Virus record (IMG/VR): IMGVR_UViG_3300049846_000713
Location: 1-27,762 of that record
Strand: one strand, 5' to 3'
DNA length: 27,762 nucleotides
Origin: a virus
Below the pieces are notes generated by a model. It made no database searches, was not told the origin of the DNA, and saw only the letters and a list, made by a program, of their open reading frames with translations. Both the position numbers and the translations under genes were made by a program. Of the stretch, positions 1,298 to 9,733 are shown piece by piece. Numbering within the stretch: position 1 is the first letter of the stretch; each line of letters starts with the position of its first letter.

Positions 1298-1495
1298 TTA
1301 GGGATGAGCCAGTCTCTCTTGTAAATCTCTTTCAGGCATTCTTCTCCAAACCTTTACATAGCCCCACCAGTGCTTACCACATTCTTCACACCAGCGATGA
1401 ACAAGTGTGCGGTTCTTTGTGTCTGAATATACTGCATGTTCTACTGAGAAATAGTGTTTGTGTGCCACCCTCTTCTTAGCTTTTGGTTTTGTCAT
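1298..1495 (-). CDS. small basic protein with a CEECG knuckle
   Basis: This 65-residue, Lys/Arg/His-rich protein has one CxxC knuckle (WCEECGKHWWGY, about residues 36-47) plus several histidines that could complete a zinc site. Its ATG overlaps the stop of the cytosine methyltransferase gene (ATGA), so it is translationally coupled to it and probably co-expressed. A nucleic-acid-binding role is plausible from composition only. Confidence 0.65.
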   Translation of the reverse strand: MTKPKAKKRVAHKHYFSVEHAVYSDTKNRTLVHRWCEECGKHWWGYVKVWRRMPERDLQERLAHP

Positions 1496-2523
1496 GAGTC
1501 GATTTCTTTAATCACTTTCATAATTTCCGCTGCGACTTGCGGGACGATCGCATTTCCAAGAGCTTTGAGTCTGGGAGTTCTGTCCAGCCGTTTGGGTATC
1601 CCATCATCCATTCGACAAAGGCGGGTTGCAACTTCAAGCCAGTTTTCACTCCAGTCATGTGTGTAGTCAGACCAATTTGTTTCCCCAGTTTGATTCTCCT
1701 CTGTATCGCTGGGTTCTCCATTGTTCCCCTGTCCCTGTTGTCGCTTGTGTTTGGTGTTGGAAGCATTCCCACCATTTTTATCTTGTCGTTGAGTGTCAGT
1801 TGGGCGTGCTGTCCGCTTTTCCGTGTTGGTTTCCACTCTTTCATCTCTCCTCGATTCCCCATGTTTGAGTCTGGGGTTGGAAGCATGGATATTTGAGTTG
1901 TCAGGTTCGGTGTGCAGTTCTCCGACCTGTCCCCCATCCTTTTCACGAACTTGCTCTGGTCTTCTTGTATCTCTAGAACTCGTGGAGTGTGCAATAATCC
2001 AGACCCTATCCCTCCTGTGTGGGGCGTTGACGGCAACAGCTGGAATAATAAACGCTTGTACTTCGTAACCTTCACTTTCCAAGTCAGTGTGGACTTGTTC
2101 GAGTACCAAACCTTCGCTCCAAGTAACGAGGCCGCCAACATTTTCACCAATGACCCACCTCGGATGAAACTCTCGTATGACTCGTAACATTTCTGGCCAG
2201 AGATGGCGATCGTCCTCCGTACCGAGTCTTCGTCCTGCTTGGGAAAAAGGCTGGCAGGGGAATCCACCTGTGAGGAGATGGACTCTATCTCGTATGCCAG
2301 ATTTGGTGTGAAGTCGGGACGGCTCTGCGGAGTCAGCTTGTTCGTTCTCGGCGTAGGTAAGAGTCCTGATGTCTCCGTAGATTTTGGCCGTTGGCCAGTG
2401 TTTTTTGAGGATTTCTTGTGCATAGGGTTCATTGTCGCAAAATACATGTTCTACGTTATCCCAGACCATCTCCGTAGCGAGTGCGAATCCTCCGATTCCT
2501 GAGAAAAGGTCAAGGTGCTTCAT
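1492..2523 (-). CDS. C5-cytosine-specific DNA methyltransferase
   Basis: This enzyme transfers a methyl group from S-adenosylmethionine to carbon 5 of cytosine in DNA, probably to protect phage DNA from host restriction. The family's motifs are in order: motif I LDLFSGIGGFA (residues 4-14), motif IV GGFPCQPFSQAGRR with catalytic Cys90, motif VI GENVGG (126-131), motif VIII region ending NAPHRRDRVWIIA (166-178), and motif IX-X RLKALGNAIVPQVA (318-331). At 343 residues it is close to the usual length. Residues about 180-290 are hydrophilic and poorly conserved-looking, as expected for the target-recognition stretch. There is no restriction-endonuclease neighbour, so it looks like an orphan enzyme. 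A second long frame on the same strand overlaps most of it. Confidence 0.95.
   Translation of the reverse strand: MKHLDLFSGIGGFALATEMVWDNVEHVFCDNEPYAQEILKKHWPTAKIYGDIRTLTYAENEQADSAEPSRLHTKSGIRDRVHLLTGGFPCQPFSQAGRRLGTEDDRHLWPEMLRVIREFHPRWVIGENVGGLVTWSEGLVLEQVHTDLESEGYEVQAFIIPAVAVNAPHRRDRVWIIAHSTSSRDTRRPEQVREKDGGQVGELHTEPDNSNIHASNPRLKHGESRRDERVETNTEKRTARPTDTQRQDKNGGNASNTKHKRQQGQGNNGEPSDTEENQTGETNWSDYTHDWSENWLEVATRLCRMDDGIPKRLDRTPRLKALGNAIVPQVAAEIMKVIKEIDS
1518..2447 (-). other. long overlapping +1 reading frame inside the methyltransferase gene
   Basis: In the +1 frame relative to the methyltransferase, 309 codons stay open. The conceptual protein has recurring LPTP-type motifs (LLPTPRT, LLHTPRV, MLPTPDS, MLPTPNT). 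It ends with FVEWMMGYPNGWTEL, a phrase I recognise from database proteins next to or annotated as phage methyltransferases. Each LPTP/LHTP motif lies opposite an A-H/N-S/T phrase of the enzyme, and FVEWMMGYP lies opposite LCRMDDGIP, so the two frames constrain each other. No convincing ribosome site precedes the ATG at 2447. It may be a real dual-coding gene or a by-product of conserved enzyme codons. Confidence 0.35.
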
Positions 2524-4718: not shown

Positions 4719-5063
4719 TTAGGGGCTCAACCAAGCCATTAATTCGGCTATTGCGTCTGATCTCTTCACCAATGATCGTGCTTTTTTCTCTAGTTTATCG
4801 TAGCCGCCCTTGCCTAACTGTTCGATCTTTTTGTCTCGGTACAACCCCTGTTTGTTTCCCTCGTGTCTCATGTGACATCCACCGCAGATACCGTCACAGT
4901 TCAACGGATCATATCTAGTAGAAGAATTGCCACGTCCCCAAAAGTGAGAGTTCTGTGAGGCAGGATTCTGGCAAAAGAAACAGATTTTGTCTCGATCTCT
5001 AATCCACTTAGAAAAAAGTTTGTCTGCTTTCGCACTCGTCCACAACTTACTTTTTCTTTTCAT
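4719..5063 (-). CDS. NinG/Rap-type HNH-like recombination protein
   Basis: 114 residues from the ATG at 5063, which lies inside the end of the upstream gene (17-base overlap). A longer frame to 5105 would overlap further and is not needed. The core matches NinG/Rap proteins: C28-x2-C31, H40 followed by FWGRGN, an S-T-R-Y-D-P-x-N phrase (48-55), then C60-x2-C63-HMRH. Family members in lambdoid phages are structure-specific nucleases acting on branched recombination intermediates, and the Cys residues bind zinc. The neighbours (ssDNA-binding candidate and PD-(D/E)XK nuclease upstream) agree with a recombination/repair role. Confidence 0.85.
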   Translation of the reverse strand: MKRKSKLWTSAKADKLFSKWIRDRDKICFFCQNPASQNSHFWGRGNSSTRYDPLNCDGICGGCHMRHEGNKQGLYRDKKIEQLGKGGYDKLEKKARSLVKRSDAIAELMAWLSP

Positions 5064-5325
5064 TCCAAGCCATGTGCTTAGTAATATGCGCCACGTAGTT
5101 TTCACCCCTACGTATTCTGTCCTCGACTTGAGACTTCAATGCATACATTTCCGATAGAGTGAGGTGAGAGAGTTTAATAGCTGTCAACTTCACTGTATAC
5201 GGTGCTGGAAGTTTGAAAGCAAAATACTCTAGCAACTCTCCTCGTTCGTTACGTTTCTTCTGTGCAATCTTTCCCTCCTTTGTTTGGGAAGTAATGGGTT
5301 TCACTAGATCAGATAGTTTTTTCAT
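5047..5325 (-). CDS. conserved-looking phage protein of the recombination cluster
   Basis: 92 residues, basic N-terminal region (KEGKIAQKKRNERGELLEYF), then a helical segment with LSHLTLSEMYALKSQVEDR. I have seen this L-L-Y-x-L-K pattern in small phage proteins next to NinG-like genes, but no function is known to me. It lies one base from the next upstream gene and overlaps the NinG-like gene. Probably a partner in DNA processing, by position only. Confidence 0.65.
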   Translation of the reverse strand: MKKLSDLVKPITSQTKEGKIAQKKRNERGELLEYFAFKLPAPYTVKLTAIKLSHLTLSEMYALKSQVEDRIRRGENYVAHITKHMAWNEKKK

Positions 5326-5613: not shown

Positions 5614-6072
5614 CTAGAAAGGACTATTGGCTGGATCGAAGTCAGGCTCCGGCATGTCATTTACTGGATAGGTATATCCCCTTTTTGCTTCCTCAGCCAA
5701 TGCTCGTAAATCCTTTACCTTTAGTCCGGCCTTATACGCAAGAGCCTCAACGCAGATTTCTAGTTCTTCTACTTTGAAATTGAGTTTGCCGAGTCTTGAT
5801 TTTATCCCCGTTATTTCTTCGTGTGCGATATCTTCTTTTTTAGGTAAATCAAAATTAAGATATTGTCCGTTTTCCTTGATGATTACCTCAACAACGTCCC
5901 CCTCCTTCCAATTTTTGTTCTCATTCTTCTCAAATCCTGAAATCCATCTTTCACCAAACTCAGCAGATTGAACGCGGACGCTAGTATATGGTCTGCCGTC
6001 TTTTGTTTTTAACGGATTACCACTCTTATCGGTGGTGAATCTTGATACCTTTGTAAGTGTTAGTTTTGTCAT
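5614..6072 (-). CDS. putative OB-fold single-stranded DNA-binding protein
   Basis: 152 residues. Residues about 20-75 look like a beta-barrel strand series (RPYTSVRVQS, ERWISGFEKN, WKEGDVVEVIIKENGQYLNF). A helical middle follows, then an acidic tail ending EPDFDPANSPF, reminiscent of the acidic Pro-Phe tips by which SSB proteins recruit partners. This supports a phage SSB-like role, coating single strands during recombination or replication. The ATG overlaps the stop of the PD-(D/E)XK nuclease gene (ATGA), so the two are tightly coupled. I cannot assign a named family from sequence alone. Confidence 0.6.
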   Translation of the reverse strand: MTKLTLTKVSRFTTDKSGNPLKTKDGRPYTSVRVQSAEFGERWISGFEKNENKNWKEGDVVEVIIKENGQYLNFDLPKKEDIAHEEITGIKSRLGKLNFKVEELEICVEALAYKAGLKVKDLRALAEEAKRGYTYPVNDMPEPDFDPANSPF

Positions 6073-6791
6073 GCCCAGTTTTTTAGAGTCCTATAAAGAT
6101 CAAGTGCTGCTAGGAAGCCTTTCGTGTCTCCCGCAACGTCATATGACCACCTCACATCCTTTTCAGGATTGTGTGGCCGTTCCTTTGGGAGATTGAATAC
6201 ACAGTACCCCGCAACCTCTGTCCCCTCGGATTCGGTGAGCATCAAGCCATACGCGGCGCATTGAAGCATCGGTACGCGGTCATACAATGCCTTGTATGTT
6301 TTGAGATCGCCAACGTATACTTTGCCATCTTTCTCGAAAAGAAAGTCCATGGTTCCGGCAATGCCTAGAGATTTAGAGTAAACCATCTTTTCGCTTGCTA
6401 GAAACTTTACGTTGTTAGCAAATGACCAGTCTATGAATGGCTGGATTGGTGAGTAGTCAACGTCGCGAAAGATGTGATTTATTTGTTCGTTGATCCAATC
6501 CTCCACCATTGCGTGTGTGTCGGTTCCCTTTTTTGCGCCGTCCTCTTTTTTCTTTGTATGTGCAACGGATGCTTCCTTTAGTTCTTCCTCGGTCACCAGA
6601 TATTCGCCTGACTCGGTTTTCTCACAGTTATCACGAATGAATTGTGAGGTCATTTTTGCAGCCCACGGTATAAGTGCGCTTTTAGATATGACATTAAGAA
6701 TAGAAGTCACGCCATCAAGTGCGCGGCCGTCTAATGTGTAAACGTGCCTACCCGCGTCAAAATTAAACTTTGTGGTAGCTTCCATATTCAT
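6069..6791 (-). CDS. PD-(D/E)XK superfamily nuclease (RecB/Cas4-like exonuclease)
   Basis: 240 residues. After an N-terminal HVYTLDGR...LDGVTSIL segment come the signature residues of a RecB-family nuclease: GT-x2-H (89-93), Glu134 (SEKMVYS), Asp149 (GTMDFLF), Asp162-x-Lys164 (GDLKT) and the Q177-x3-Y181 motif typical of this branch. It probably degrades DNA ends to give single-stranded tails for phage recombination, working with the coupled SSB-like protein. No single-strand annealing protein is seen nearby, which is unusual for such modules. Starts at 6791 or 6785 are both possible, and both overlap the preceding gene. Confidence 0.85.
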   Translation of the reverse strand: MNMEATTKFNFDAGRHVYTLDGRALDGVTSILNVISKSALIPWAAKMTSQFIRDNCEKTESGEYLVTEEELKEASVAHTKKKEDGAKKGTDTHAMVEDWINEQINHIFRDVDYSPIQPFIDWSFANNVKFLASEKMVYSKSLGIAGTMDFLFEKDGKVYVGDLKTYKALYDRVPMLQCAAYGLMLTESEGTEVAGYCVFNLPKERPHNPEKDVRWSYDVAGDTKGFLAALDLYRTLKNWA

Positions 6792-7144: not shown

Positions 7145-7197
7145 ATTCTAGCATCTAGGTAGGATGGCGCAAGGGGTTCAATATTTAGTTGGGGATA
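7145..7197 (-). promoter_or_regulatory. leftward promoter sharing the upstream box
   Basis: Minus-strand -35 TTGCGC (7167-7172), 16-base spacer, -10 TAGAAT (7145-7150), leaving about 26 bases to the ATG at 7118. The box TATCCCCAACTAAAT (minus strand, 7183-7197) lies ten bases upstream of the -35, exactly as at 4700-4714, and TAGCATCTAG (7149-7158) overlaps the -10/spacer edge. Here the box also encodes the last residues and stop of the zinc-ribbon gene. Confidence 0.65.
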
Positions 7198-7340
7198 ATG
7201 ATTTTCTTCATGTATTGCCTACACATGGGGCAGCACTTTGGCCTCTCCACCTTAGGTGACCACACATACAGGCAATTCTTGTTTGTGCACACCACTATCT
7301 TAGGCACACTTAATTTGTCTATTTCTTTTGTTTTTTTCAT
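7185..7340 (-). CDS. micro zinc-ribbon protein
   Basis: 51 residues from the ATG at 7340 to the TAA at 7185. The core VVCTNKNCLYVW...ERPKCCPMCRQYMKK is a compact zinc ribbon: a C-x4-C knuckle, an aromatic strand, then C-C-x2-C, with basic flanks suited to nucleic-acid or ribosome contact. It starts four bases after the stop of the DUF3440-tail-like gene and closes the cassette before the next promoter. There is no Shine-Dalgarno. Function unknown, but the metal site is clear. Confidence 0.7.
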   Translation of the reverse strand: MKKTKEIDKLSVPKIVVCTNKNCLYVWSPKVERPKCCPMCRQYMKKIIIPN

Positions 7341-7344
7341 TTTT

Positions 7345-7614
7345 TTAGAAAAGCGTTAACTGTACCCTTACCCCACGTTCCATTAACTCTTTTCTTTTTA
7401 TAAGATAATAAGCCTCTTTTTTCGTGGCGGTGAACCCTAGTGTTTTGAGGTGTGTGTCGTTTTTCATAATTGCCCTACAAACCGCCTTATAACTTGGAAC
7501 CCTGTTCGACCTCTCCAGCCCCGCATCAATCTCGTCCGGTATTCCACTTGAATAGCACCTGTGTTCCCACATCACGATATAATCTCTTATTTTTTCTTTT
7601 GTTTTCCCATTCAT
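7345..7614 (-). CDS. small protein repeating the DUF3440 tail motif of the IbrA-like protein
   Basis: 89 residues from the ATG at 7614, chosen because AAGG lies seven bases ahead; a GTG-started form reaches 7635. Residues about 39-65 read VPSYKAVCRAIMKND...LGFTATKK. This closely parallels IPTYKRMCICIMKND...MGFSLTKG at residues 386-412 of the IbrA-like protein three genes upstream. It is thus a free-standing copy of that tail, without the PP-loop domain. It overlaps the preceding gene by 89 bases in another frame. It could modulate or partner the enzyme. Function unknown. Confidence 0.7.
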   Translation of the reverse strand: MNGKTKEKIRDYIVMWEHRCYSSGIPDEIDAGLERSNRVPSYKAVCRAIMKNDTHLKTLGFTATKKEAYYLIKRKELMERGVRVQLTLF

Positions 7615-7948
7615 AAATAGCCTTGTCTGCTTCACTGTTGGCCAAATCTTGTTGTTTTTTGGTTAATCTACCCCACGCCTGACGCGTTATATCCTCAGGA
7701 CACTGGATTGCGTAAGCAACAGCCGCATGACCGATCCACGCCCTTCTATTTTGTGACATGTCGGTAAGTGCATTTTCGCAACTATACTTCCAGTCCCTCA
7801 CAACAGCCCTCATCCACTCTCCATACAGCTCGTGGTCACCCGTAAAATCAATAGCCCTGCCCAGCATTTCTTTTTTGTTTTCAGCGTGGCCCCACATGTT
7901 GTATTTATTTTCCTCCCACAAATCATAGGGATGATATATTCTTTTCAT
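7526..7948 (-). CDS. conserved phage protein accompanying IbrA/IbrB-like genes
   Basis: 140 residues. It starts MKRIYHPYDLWEE and contains AIDFTGDHELYGEWMRAV (about residues 32-49), SQNRRAWIGHAAVAYA and ITRQAWGRLTKKQQ...ANSEADKAI. From memory, proteins with the same F-TGDHELYG and R-RAWIGHAA phrases stand beside ParB-like and PAPS-reductase-like genes in other phages, so this looks like a regular third member of the cassette. It is a soluble, helical protein with no catalytic motif I know. The start overlaps the IbrB-like stop (ATGA). The last 89 bases overlap the next gene. Confidence 0.75.
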   Translation of the reverse strand: MKRIYHPYDLWEENKYNMWGHAENKKEMLGRAIDFTGDHELYGEWMRAVVRDWKYSCENALTDMSQNRRAWIGHAAVAYAIQCPEDITRQAWGRLTKKQQDLANSEADKAIYEWENKRKNKRLYRDVGTQVLFKWNTGRD

Positions 7949-8439
7949 ACAGTGGTAAACTCCCTATCAATAAACAATGAGGCAAGGCCTGTGATTTGTT
8001 TCAGCCTGAGAAGTTCATCTTTGTCCATACCTATGTGTTTTAATATCCACGCGTCACTCATTCCCGACTCAACAAGTTCCCCAACAATATTACTCATCAA
8101 TTGAACAGAGTGTGAACCCCTTGCGCGGTTGTGCCTAATTGTTGAGGCCATTCGGTTTGATATGTCTTTGTCTATAACCACAACCGGCAACATTCCACCC
8201 TCACGTCCATATATTCTTTTTGAGTTTTTTAGGGTCGTGTATCTATGGTAGCCGTCAACTATCTCATAAATATCTTGCTCTGGGATGTAATAGCACACTA
8301 CTGGCATGGTAAAGCCGTCTTCCCATATGGAAACCTCCAACAGATCCATTTCTGGCTCTGCAACAGAGTTTGGGTTATATGAGTTTGCGCGCACTTTATC
8401 AACCGGCACTGCCCTGACGTTATATACTGGTGATTTCAT
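7945..8439 (-). CDS. ibrB: IbrB-like ParB-fold protein
   Basis: 164 residues from the ATG at 8439, one base after the IbrA-like stop; a longer frame to 8496 would overlap that gene. ParB/Srx-type features are clear: NPNSVAEPEMDLLEVSI, the VDGYHRY motif (61-67), the RMASTIRHNRARG segment (97-108) and a C-terminal helix-turn-helix-like part. The family includes E. coli IbrB, encoded beside IbrA and reported to act with it in activating eib genes. ParB-fold domains can bind or hydrolyse nucleotides. Here it is one of four coupled genes, so a joint activity with the PP-loop enzyme is likely. Which substrate is unknown. Confidence 0.85.
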   Translation of the reverse strand: MKSPVYNVRAVPVDKVRANSYNPNSVAEPEMDLLEVSIWEDGFTMPVVCYYIPEQDIYEIVDGYHRYTTLKNSKRIYGREGGMLPVVVIDKDISNRMASTIRHNRARGSHSVQLMSNIVGELVESGMSDAWILKHIGMDKDELLRLKQITGLASLFIDREFTTV

Positions 8440-8440
8440 A

Positions 8441-9733
8441 TTATTTATATATATTCTTATAATTATTTTCAGCCGCACTCCTCCTTTCAGTCTCACCCTT
8501 AGTTAAAGAGAAGCCCATGAACTTGCACAAATGGTCGTTCTTCATGATACATATACACATTCTTTTGTATGTAGGGATTTCCCTAAACTCCACAATGTTA
8601 ATATCATCAAGATATTCCATCTGAACTGGTAATTTATCTGTGTCATAGTTTGTTTTCTTCCCAACAGTAATAGGTATTTTCATTTTTTTTAGTTTTTTAA
8701 TTAACCTCTTACTAAGCACTCCACCCTTCTTCCTCCAAAACACCTGACTGATTTCTAGTTTTTTTTTATAATTCTCTGCTGCTTTTTCTGGTAATGTGCT
8801 GAGAAGAAAATCCATGTAGCTTTTCCACGTGTGTCCCTTGGGTAAAACAATATTCCGCCAACCCATTGCAGTTGTCCCGCCATATAGGCCGGTAAAGTTT
8901 ACACCGTTCACTCGGCCAATCATCCGACCCCAATTGTTCGGGTCTATAACCTTGTAATATTTTAGGCTTGCTGGTGCAGCGTCGTTGAACGGACTCGCAC
9001 ACCTCATTTGTCCTAAAGACAAACCAGCCTGATAGAACAAGTCATATAGCTTGTTATACTCGAAACCAAACTTGGCATTAGCGGTCCATATGTCCTCTGC
9101 AAGCCAATCATATATCGGGTACATGTTATAAACATTGCGATACATTTTTTTTGACCAATCGAGTCCCTTATATTTGTTTATGTTTTTGTCTGAGTGTATC
9201 GCGCGCCAACGGTTTAGGCTTTCTTGTGTTCTTATGCCGACAAGGCACGCTGTTTTCTTTGCGTGTTTTTTGTTGTGAAGCCACAAACTAAACTGCTCTT
9301 GTAGGTCATAGTCCCACATTTCCTTTTTAAAAAAATCGAAATTATGGTTGTCTTCATTTATACAATTTTCAGGCATCGGCCTAACCCACAAGTCCTTTTT
9401 TTCTTTCTCCCACGGTACCCAATGGTCCTGATATGCTGAAGTACAGCACTGCGCTGATATTGGTAAACAGATTCTGTAATATTCCAATATGTCTTGATTT
9501 GAACTAAAAACCGAATCAACGTAATCGGTGGTCATTTGATACTGCGCCTCATAGTCAATGTGGAATACTCCAAGCTTTCTATTGGGTGCAAGGTCTCTTA
9601 TGTATTTAACACAAAGACTTAACAGCAATCCACTGTCCTTCCCACCACTAAAAGACACATAAACGTTGTCGAAGTTATCAAAAACGTACTTGATTCGTTG
9701 CATTGATTCTGTATACACATTTTTGTTTTCCAT
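8441..9733 (-). CDS. ibrA: IbrA-like PAPS-reductase-family PP-loop protein with DUF3440-type tail
   Basis: 430 residues. The N-terminal PP-loop nucleotide-binding motif SGGKDS is at 29-34, followed by VFHIDYEAQYQ (56-65), a CC pair (96-97) and GIRTQES (166-172). YPIYDWLAEDIW (205-216) and RCASPFND (244-251) follow, and a DUF3440-type tail closes with IPTYKRMCICIMKND (386-400). The architecture is that of IbrA and phage 'phosphoadenosine phosphosulfate reductase' proteins, which activate a substrate with ATP. True sulfate reduction is unlikely for a phage gene, and modification of nucleic acid or another macromolecule fits better (inference). The first gene of its transcript, it starts six bases after the -10 box. 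Confidence 0.9.
   Translation of the reverse strand: MENKNVYTESMQRIKYVFDNFDNVYVSFSGGKDSGLLLSLCVKYIRDLAPNRKLGVFHIDYEAQYQMTTDYVDSVFSSNQDILEYYRICLPISAQCCTSAYQDHWVPWEKEKKDLWVRPMPENCINEDNHNFDFFKKEMWDYDLQEQFSLWLHNKKHAKKTACLVGIRTQESLNRWRAIHSDKNINKYKGLDWSKKMYRNVYNMYPIYDWLAEDIWTANAKFGFEYNKLYDLFYQAGLSLGQMRCASPFNDAAPASLKYYKVIDPNNWGRMIGRVNGVNFTGLYGGTTAMGWRNIVLPKGHTWKSYMDFLLSTLPEKAAENYKKKLEISQVFWRKKGGVLSKRLIKKLKKMKIPITVGKKTNYDTDKLPVQMEYLDDINIVEFREIPTYKRMCICIMKNDHLCKFMGFSLTKGETERRSAAENNYKNIYK

Follow-up and report, generated by a model that had tools for sequence, protein, structure and literature searches.

What does an IbrA/IbrB-type gene pair do in a phage when two further genes are coupled to it? To our knowledge, activation of the eib genes is the sole role reported for IbrAB in E. 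coli. We analyzed an IMG/VR virus contig of 27.8 kb (hereafter the window, the whole stretch of 27,762 nucleotides), which carries a cassette of four genes, A to D, on the minus strand from 9733 to 7345.

Organization of the cassette

All four genes described in an earlier note on this DNA are present and tightly coupled:

8441-9733, minus strand: gene A, IbrA-type PP-loop ATPase with DUF3440 (PAPS-reductase/FAD-synthase/CysD fold), long form, 430 aa
9632-9649, minus strand: SGGKDS PP-loop of A, residues 29-34, conservation assessed in 38 relatives
8525-8527, minus strand: Cys403 of A, in KNDHLCK, sole invariant cysteine in 38 relatives
7945-8439, minus strand: gene B, IbrB-type ParB/sulfiredoxin-fold protein with DGYHR and IRHNRARGSH motifs, 164-165 aa
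7526-7948, minus strand: gene C, all-helical family with FTGDHELYG and RAWIGHAA, 140 aa
7345-7614 or 7345-7635, minus strand: gene D, free DUF3440 tail, putative adaptor, 89-96 aa
7534-7560, minus strand: RCYSSGIPD tail motif of D, absent from the window A and supplied in trans
7348-7362, minus strand: QLTLF, extreme C-terminus of D, matching the beta-clamp-binding consensus QL[S/D]LF / QxxLF

The start of B is most likely ATG 8439, which leaves a gap of 1 nt to the stop codon of A; the alternative GTG 8496 is disfavoured. The start codon of C sits in the stop codon of B (ATGA overlap). D begins at GTG 7635 or at ATG 7614 and shares 89-110 nt with the 3' end of C; ATG 7614 has an AAGG Shine-Dalgarno-like site. 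A programmed frameshift between C and D was considered and dropped, because the only in-frame slippery heptamer (A_AAA_AAT, found by eye) enters the third frame and not that of D, and because D has its own start with the AAGG site. In L019, L039, L092 and about 65 more loci, D starts (MSxxxWQxxKQ) up to about 130 nt inside C; both frames are open and conserved in the overlaps of L019, L039, L092 and their kin, making them a long overlapping gene pair.

The cassette is the first leftward gene block, as previously described, and faces the rightward terminase and structural genes. The promoter of its own with which it had been credited was not recovered: a sigma-70-type scan found nothing on the minus strand upstream of 9733, and the 9 matches that it gave in all are close to the mean of 8.1 after shuffling.

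Linkage of the four genes

The same four-gene set was found in hundreds of virus contigs, above what chance would give. A profile of C matched at least 571 virus contigs, no plasmid, and one of 84,980 bacterial and archaeal genomes, a Planctomycetota MAG; C is essentially a phage-only family. Six records of a phage collection contain C, and A and B lie beside it in all six. Among 160 C-seeded virus loci, C always adjoins or is fused to B, with A alongside wherever the contig reaches; the loci covered were the best 80 of at least 571 contigs, two earlier ones, and 80 seeded on a divergent C. The gene order varies between A-B-C-D, C-D-A-B, B-C-D-A and B-C-A. Fusions join B to C (26 ORFs, corresponding to 5 changes on the tree of A), C to D (L252) and D to A (L146). 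The retention of linkage despite shuffled order, together with the fusions, strongly indicates one complex, and A, B, C and D almost certainly form one system; the single joint activity proposed for them withstood the co-occurrence check. That C and D are merely neighbours of an IbrAB pair might be argued from the frequency of A-B alone in phages and its presence in E. coli K-12 as ybdN-ybdM, but none of the 160 seeded loci has C apart from A-B. This reading is refuted by the linkage and fusion data, and we put its probability close to nil.

When virus loci were seeded with the window A, 59 of 80 held A-B alone, and C was absent from 37 A-B-only virus contigs searched over their whole length. 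Since A-B often stands without C, A-B is the core and C-D an add-on. For the same reason, the activity of A-B itself may be something else.

The IbrA/IbrB-type core

The domain composition of A (DUF3440, PF11922, 5.9e-86; PAPS_reduct, PF01507, 3.3e-14 in Pfam) and the adjacent IbrB-type gene place the pair in the IbrA/IbrB group. IbrA/IbrB of E. coli prophages, K-12 ybdN/ybdM and the Listeria pair lmo1310/lmo1309 (PMC7020466) likewise combine the A and B families in adjacent or overlapping genes; the window proteins share 33% identity (A with YbdN) and 47% identity (B with YbdM) with the K-12 pair. These three pairs differ from the cassette in lacking C, D and a clamp-type terminus. In E. coli K-12 (L096, 635-637 kb) ybdN-ybdM lies near dsbG and ahpCF, and YbdN has no clear GIPD motif. 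The literature we searched, which left most subscription journals uncovered, describes neither C nor the free tail nor the clamp motif, and leaves DUF3440, IbrAB and YbdMN unexplained. A-B is already known as a pair; its C-D extension with the clamp consensus is a new variant.

In an alignment of 38 relatives of A, residues S29, G31, K32, D33 and S34 of the PP-loop are invariant, the GIRxxES and YPIxDW segments are invariant or nearly so, and C403 is the one invariant cysteine. The structural model of A (pLDDT 73) matches the PAPS domain of human FAD synthase (Z 15.8, rmsd 3.6 over 183 residues), CysD (Z 14.5) and APS/PAPS reductases (Z 13-14.6), with the match covering residues 1-264. Judged by sequence and modelled fold, A belongs to the PP-loop ATP enzymes of the PAPS-reductase fold, and its signature residues are intact. 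TilS, NcsA, TtuA and LarE are matched at lower scores (Z 10-12 against 13-16). The identity of A as a CysH-type PAPS reductase was rejected: the ECG motif is absent from all 38 proteins, and the NCBIfam cysH model scores far below its cut-off. In PADLOC, A shows weak similarity to DndC/BrxP only, with a partial DndC match at 1.7e-7. As A has neither a DndC-like cysteine set nor ECG, no claim to phosphorothioation or to PAPS reduction can be made for it.

B matches phrog_2159 at 4.6e-76 and falls just short of the Pfam cut-off for ParB_N (25 bits against 26.3). B retains DGYHR and IRHNRARGxH and is, by its sequence, the ParB/Srx-fold partner of A. A cupin of the ectoine-synthase type (PF06339) is fused to or placed before B in 67 of the 73 loci of A-B-C-D order. 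It is absent from the window and from the A-B, B-C-A and C-D-A-B orders, and is therefore an optional extra. The cupin was observed among L015-L095, with L015:6085-7002 and L002:4075-4464 as examples.

The pairing of a putative modifying enzyme with a ParB-superfamily protein recalls two known systems, by analogy only. Dnd/Ssp also combines an enzyme of the PAPS-reductase fold (DndC) with a ParB-superfamily protein, DndB (PMC12839542). The cassette differs in having no DndD/DndE or SspB/SspC, and A in having no conserved [4Fe-4S] cysteine set, C280 of DndC being a ligand of such a cluster (PMC11662687). PADLOC returned nothing for B, C and D and named no defence system. Membership in DndC/Ssp/BREX-4 was rejected, as the partners and the cysteines are missing. 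In Dpd, 7-deazaguanine modification of DNA involves the TGT enzyme DpdA and the ParB-like DpdB (PMC12839542), so that a ParB-like NTPase again stands beside a nucleic-acid-modifying enzyme; the enzyme there is a TGT, and there is no TGT among the four cassette proteins. The Fusobacterium phage phiFN37 carries a Dpd-like pair, in which a second ParB-like gene overlaps a queuine tRNA-ribosyltransferase gene (L009:8745-9266), about 3 kb from its IbrAB pair.

The C protein and the detachable tail module

The window C has no match in Pfam, PHROGs, NCBIfam or PADLOC, and 40 members of its family share no consistent Pfam or PHROG match. It is predicted by AlphaFold2 to be all-helical (pLDDT 92). Comparison with the PDB gave a best E value of 0.79 in Foldseek and, in VIA, a Z of 3.6 (rmsd 4.8, 86 residues). 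These matches are unconvincing, and a known fold was not assigned; nor can a new fold be claimed from them.

The homology of D to DUF3440 covers the final ~45 positions of that domain and nothing else (PF11922 C-terminus, 2e-9). A itself exists in two forms. The short form, of about 395-411 aa, ends in RGYxxGIPD...NDYWCKGLGF and is found in all B-C-A loci, which are of the E. coli phage type. The long form, of about 425-445 aa, which includes the window A, lacks RGYxxGIPD. The motif is present in all 60 D sequences of the first scan, and D of the C-D-A-B group reads 'WEKKGYKQGIPDEAP...VPSYRMICKAILRNDFALTSLG'. A census of 225 distinct A proteins placed the GIPD of C-positive loci in A in 75 cases and in D in 83, with no locus having it in both. 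These counts overstate independence, since the split between cis and trans GIPD goes back to a single deep event: on a tree of A from which the tail was left out, the cis tail changes once. L250 and L251 have GIPD in neither A nor D, and both contigs are cut right after C. In 62 C-negative loci the motif is wholly absent.

Because GIPD of C-positive loci occurs in A or in D and never in both, D looks like the tail of the short-form A set free, supplying in trans the motif that the window A lacks. C and D change together in three of three independent, well-supported contrasts on the tree of A (starred branches) and were gained jointly at least three times. We infer that C works with the GIPD module, whichever gene encodes it. 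C, a large family of phage proteins with no annotation, is thereby put forward as a required partner.

A clamp-binding consensus in D

For clamp binding in bacteria the consensus is QL[S/D]LF, or more broadly QxxLF. It stands at the very C-terminus of PolC, as QLSLF, and a tight-binding peptide has the sequence QLSLPL (PMC12309361). The window D ends in ...VQLTLF, with QLTLF as its last five residues. Most D proteins share such an extreme C-terminus with beta-clamp clients (QLTLF, QLELPL or QxxLF), and differ from them in being a DUF3440 tail module and not a polymerase or repair protein. QxxL[FLIMP] occurs in the last 11 residues of 62 of 80 D proteins, a phylogenetically clustered set, against 31 of 1007 other ORFs of the same loci (3%), none of 62 A proteins from A-B-only loci, and 4.6 expected from shuffled D tails. 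Near-variants such as QLKLDL and QLELAL are found in other D. In an alignment of 33 D sequences the Q of the motif is invariant and the flanking residues are variable.

The motif is missing from at least nine apparently intact D proteins (L097, L100, L103, L104, L106, L109, L110, L113 and that of phage Gaia, L003), the first eight belonging to the C-D-A-B group and its kin. It is not enriched in short-form A (4 of 77). L146, the locus with the D-A fusion, instead has QLGLF near the end of its C protein, followed by five last residues. The D of L058 continues in frame into a DNA polymerase processivity factor (phrog_947, 1.1e-34) and has no such motif, as though a covalent link to the clamp had replaced it; this fusion is seen in one metagenomic contig and could come from misassembly or from loss of a stop codon. 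The length of this ORF had raised the suspicion of a second full IbrA after C, which proved to be D fused to the sliding clamp. From its terminus, D probably binds the clamp in the window phage, and recruitment to the clamp is likely there.

A clamp-binding D could also serve other ends. One is takeover, in which D occupies the host clamp and blocks host replication or repair, with A-B-C unrelated or acting in counter-defence. The clamp-binding consensus would suit this, and blocking a clamp is a plausible task for a small early phage protein. D, however, tracks C, is fused to C and to A, and replaces a motif of A, which makes it part of the enzyme system, and the D-clamp fusion of L058 would hardly suit a blocker. 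We consider takeover very improbable. Somewhat less remote, yet still decidedly unlikely, is a clamp-coupled activator that switches on phage or host genes after replication, with eib activation as the same activity. IbrA/IbrB are annotated as co-activators of prophage genes and D carries a clamp-type motif. Late transcription in T4, reported to be activated by a sliding clamp (PMC7892883), offers a precedent. Against this, A retains the full signature and fold of an ATP enzyme, which would be unexpected in a pure tether, and no RNA-polymerase-binding or sigma-like domain was found in the four proteins.

Genomic surroundings

The neighbours of the cassette in its relatives include an SF2 helicase (directly after D in many loci), a RecE/Cas4-type exonuclease, RecT and a primase-helicase. 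The leftward region of the window contains the following genes:

1492-2523, minus strand: C5-cytosine DNA methyltransferase
4719-5105, minus strand: NinG/Rap-like junction endonuclease
6069-6791, minus strand: PD-(D/E)XK exonuclease
7185-7340, minus strand: zinc-ribbon-like ORF, CxxxxC...CCxxC, 51 aa, beginning 4 nt past the stop codon of D

The 51-aa ORF has no relative in about 240 loci and is therefore not counted as part of the cassette; it is probably a lineage-specific gene. Integrase genes were found in 2 of 21 carrier contigs, which are possibly fragments. A replication neighbourhood is commonplace for early phage genes.

These surroundings bear on whether A-B instead modifies RNA (tRNA) or a small molecule, in a TilS/TtcA-like or sulfur-transfer-like manner, with C and D setting specificity and the links to DNA incidental. 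The lower-scoring matches of the A fold to TilS, NcsA, TtuA and LarE are compatible with such chemistry, and the cupin on or beside B points to small molecules. On the other side, D ends in a clamp-type motif and is fused to a clamp in one locus, the neighbours belong to replication and recombination, and no RNA-binding domain was recognised. We regard modification of RNA or a small molecule as unlikely, though it is the most probable of the alternatives.

Discussion

The earlier note held that the sequence does not choose among nucleic-acid modification, host-gene reprogramming and defence or anti-defence as the activity of the cassette. This still applies to the chemistry. As to the site of action, the QLTLF terminus, the D-clamp fusion and the replication and recombination neighbourhood now point towards DNA at the replication clamp. 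We rate the chance that DNA is the target of A-B-C-D as somewhat better than even.

In the reading that we prefer, and to which we would give an even chance, IbrAB is an ATP-dependent modification enzyme and C-D the adaptor by which it reaches phage DNA under replication. A and B would form the ATP-dependent modification core, and C would bind the GIPD tail module, which one branch has in A and the other in D. D would bridge the complex to the beta sliding clamp, bringing the enzyme to newly replicated phage DNA. There, A-B would modify DNA covalently, on the base or the backbone, through an adenylated intermediate, and the modification would probably protect or mark the phage DNA. Covalent modification of phage DNA falls, in our estimate, slightly short of an even chance. 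The fullest version, a replication-coupled hypermodification machine consisting of an IbrAB core, a C-D clamp adaptor, an undescribed modification and, in some relatives, an optional cupin, is tentative and rather doubtful as a whole.

IbrA/IbrB-type proteins are widespread, and an adaptor carrying a clamp consensus offers a concrete pointer to DNA at replication. If the preferred reading is true, phage DNA would be expected to carry a modification that has so far escaped notice, and the cassette would show a general route by which modification may be recruited to new DNA.
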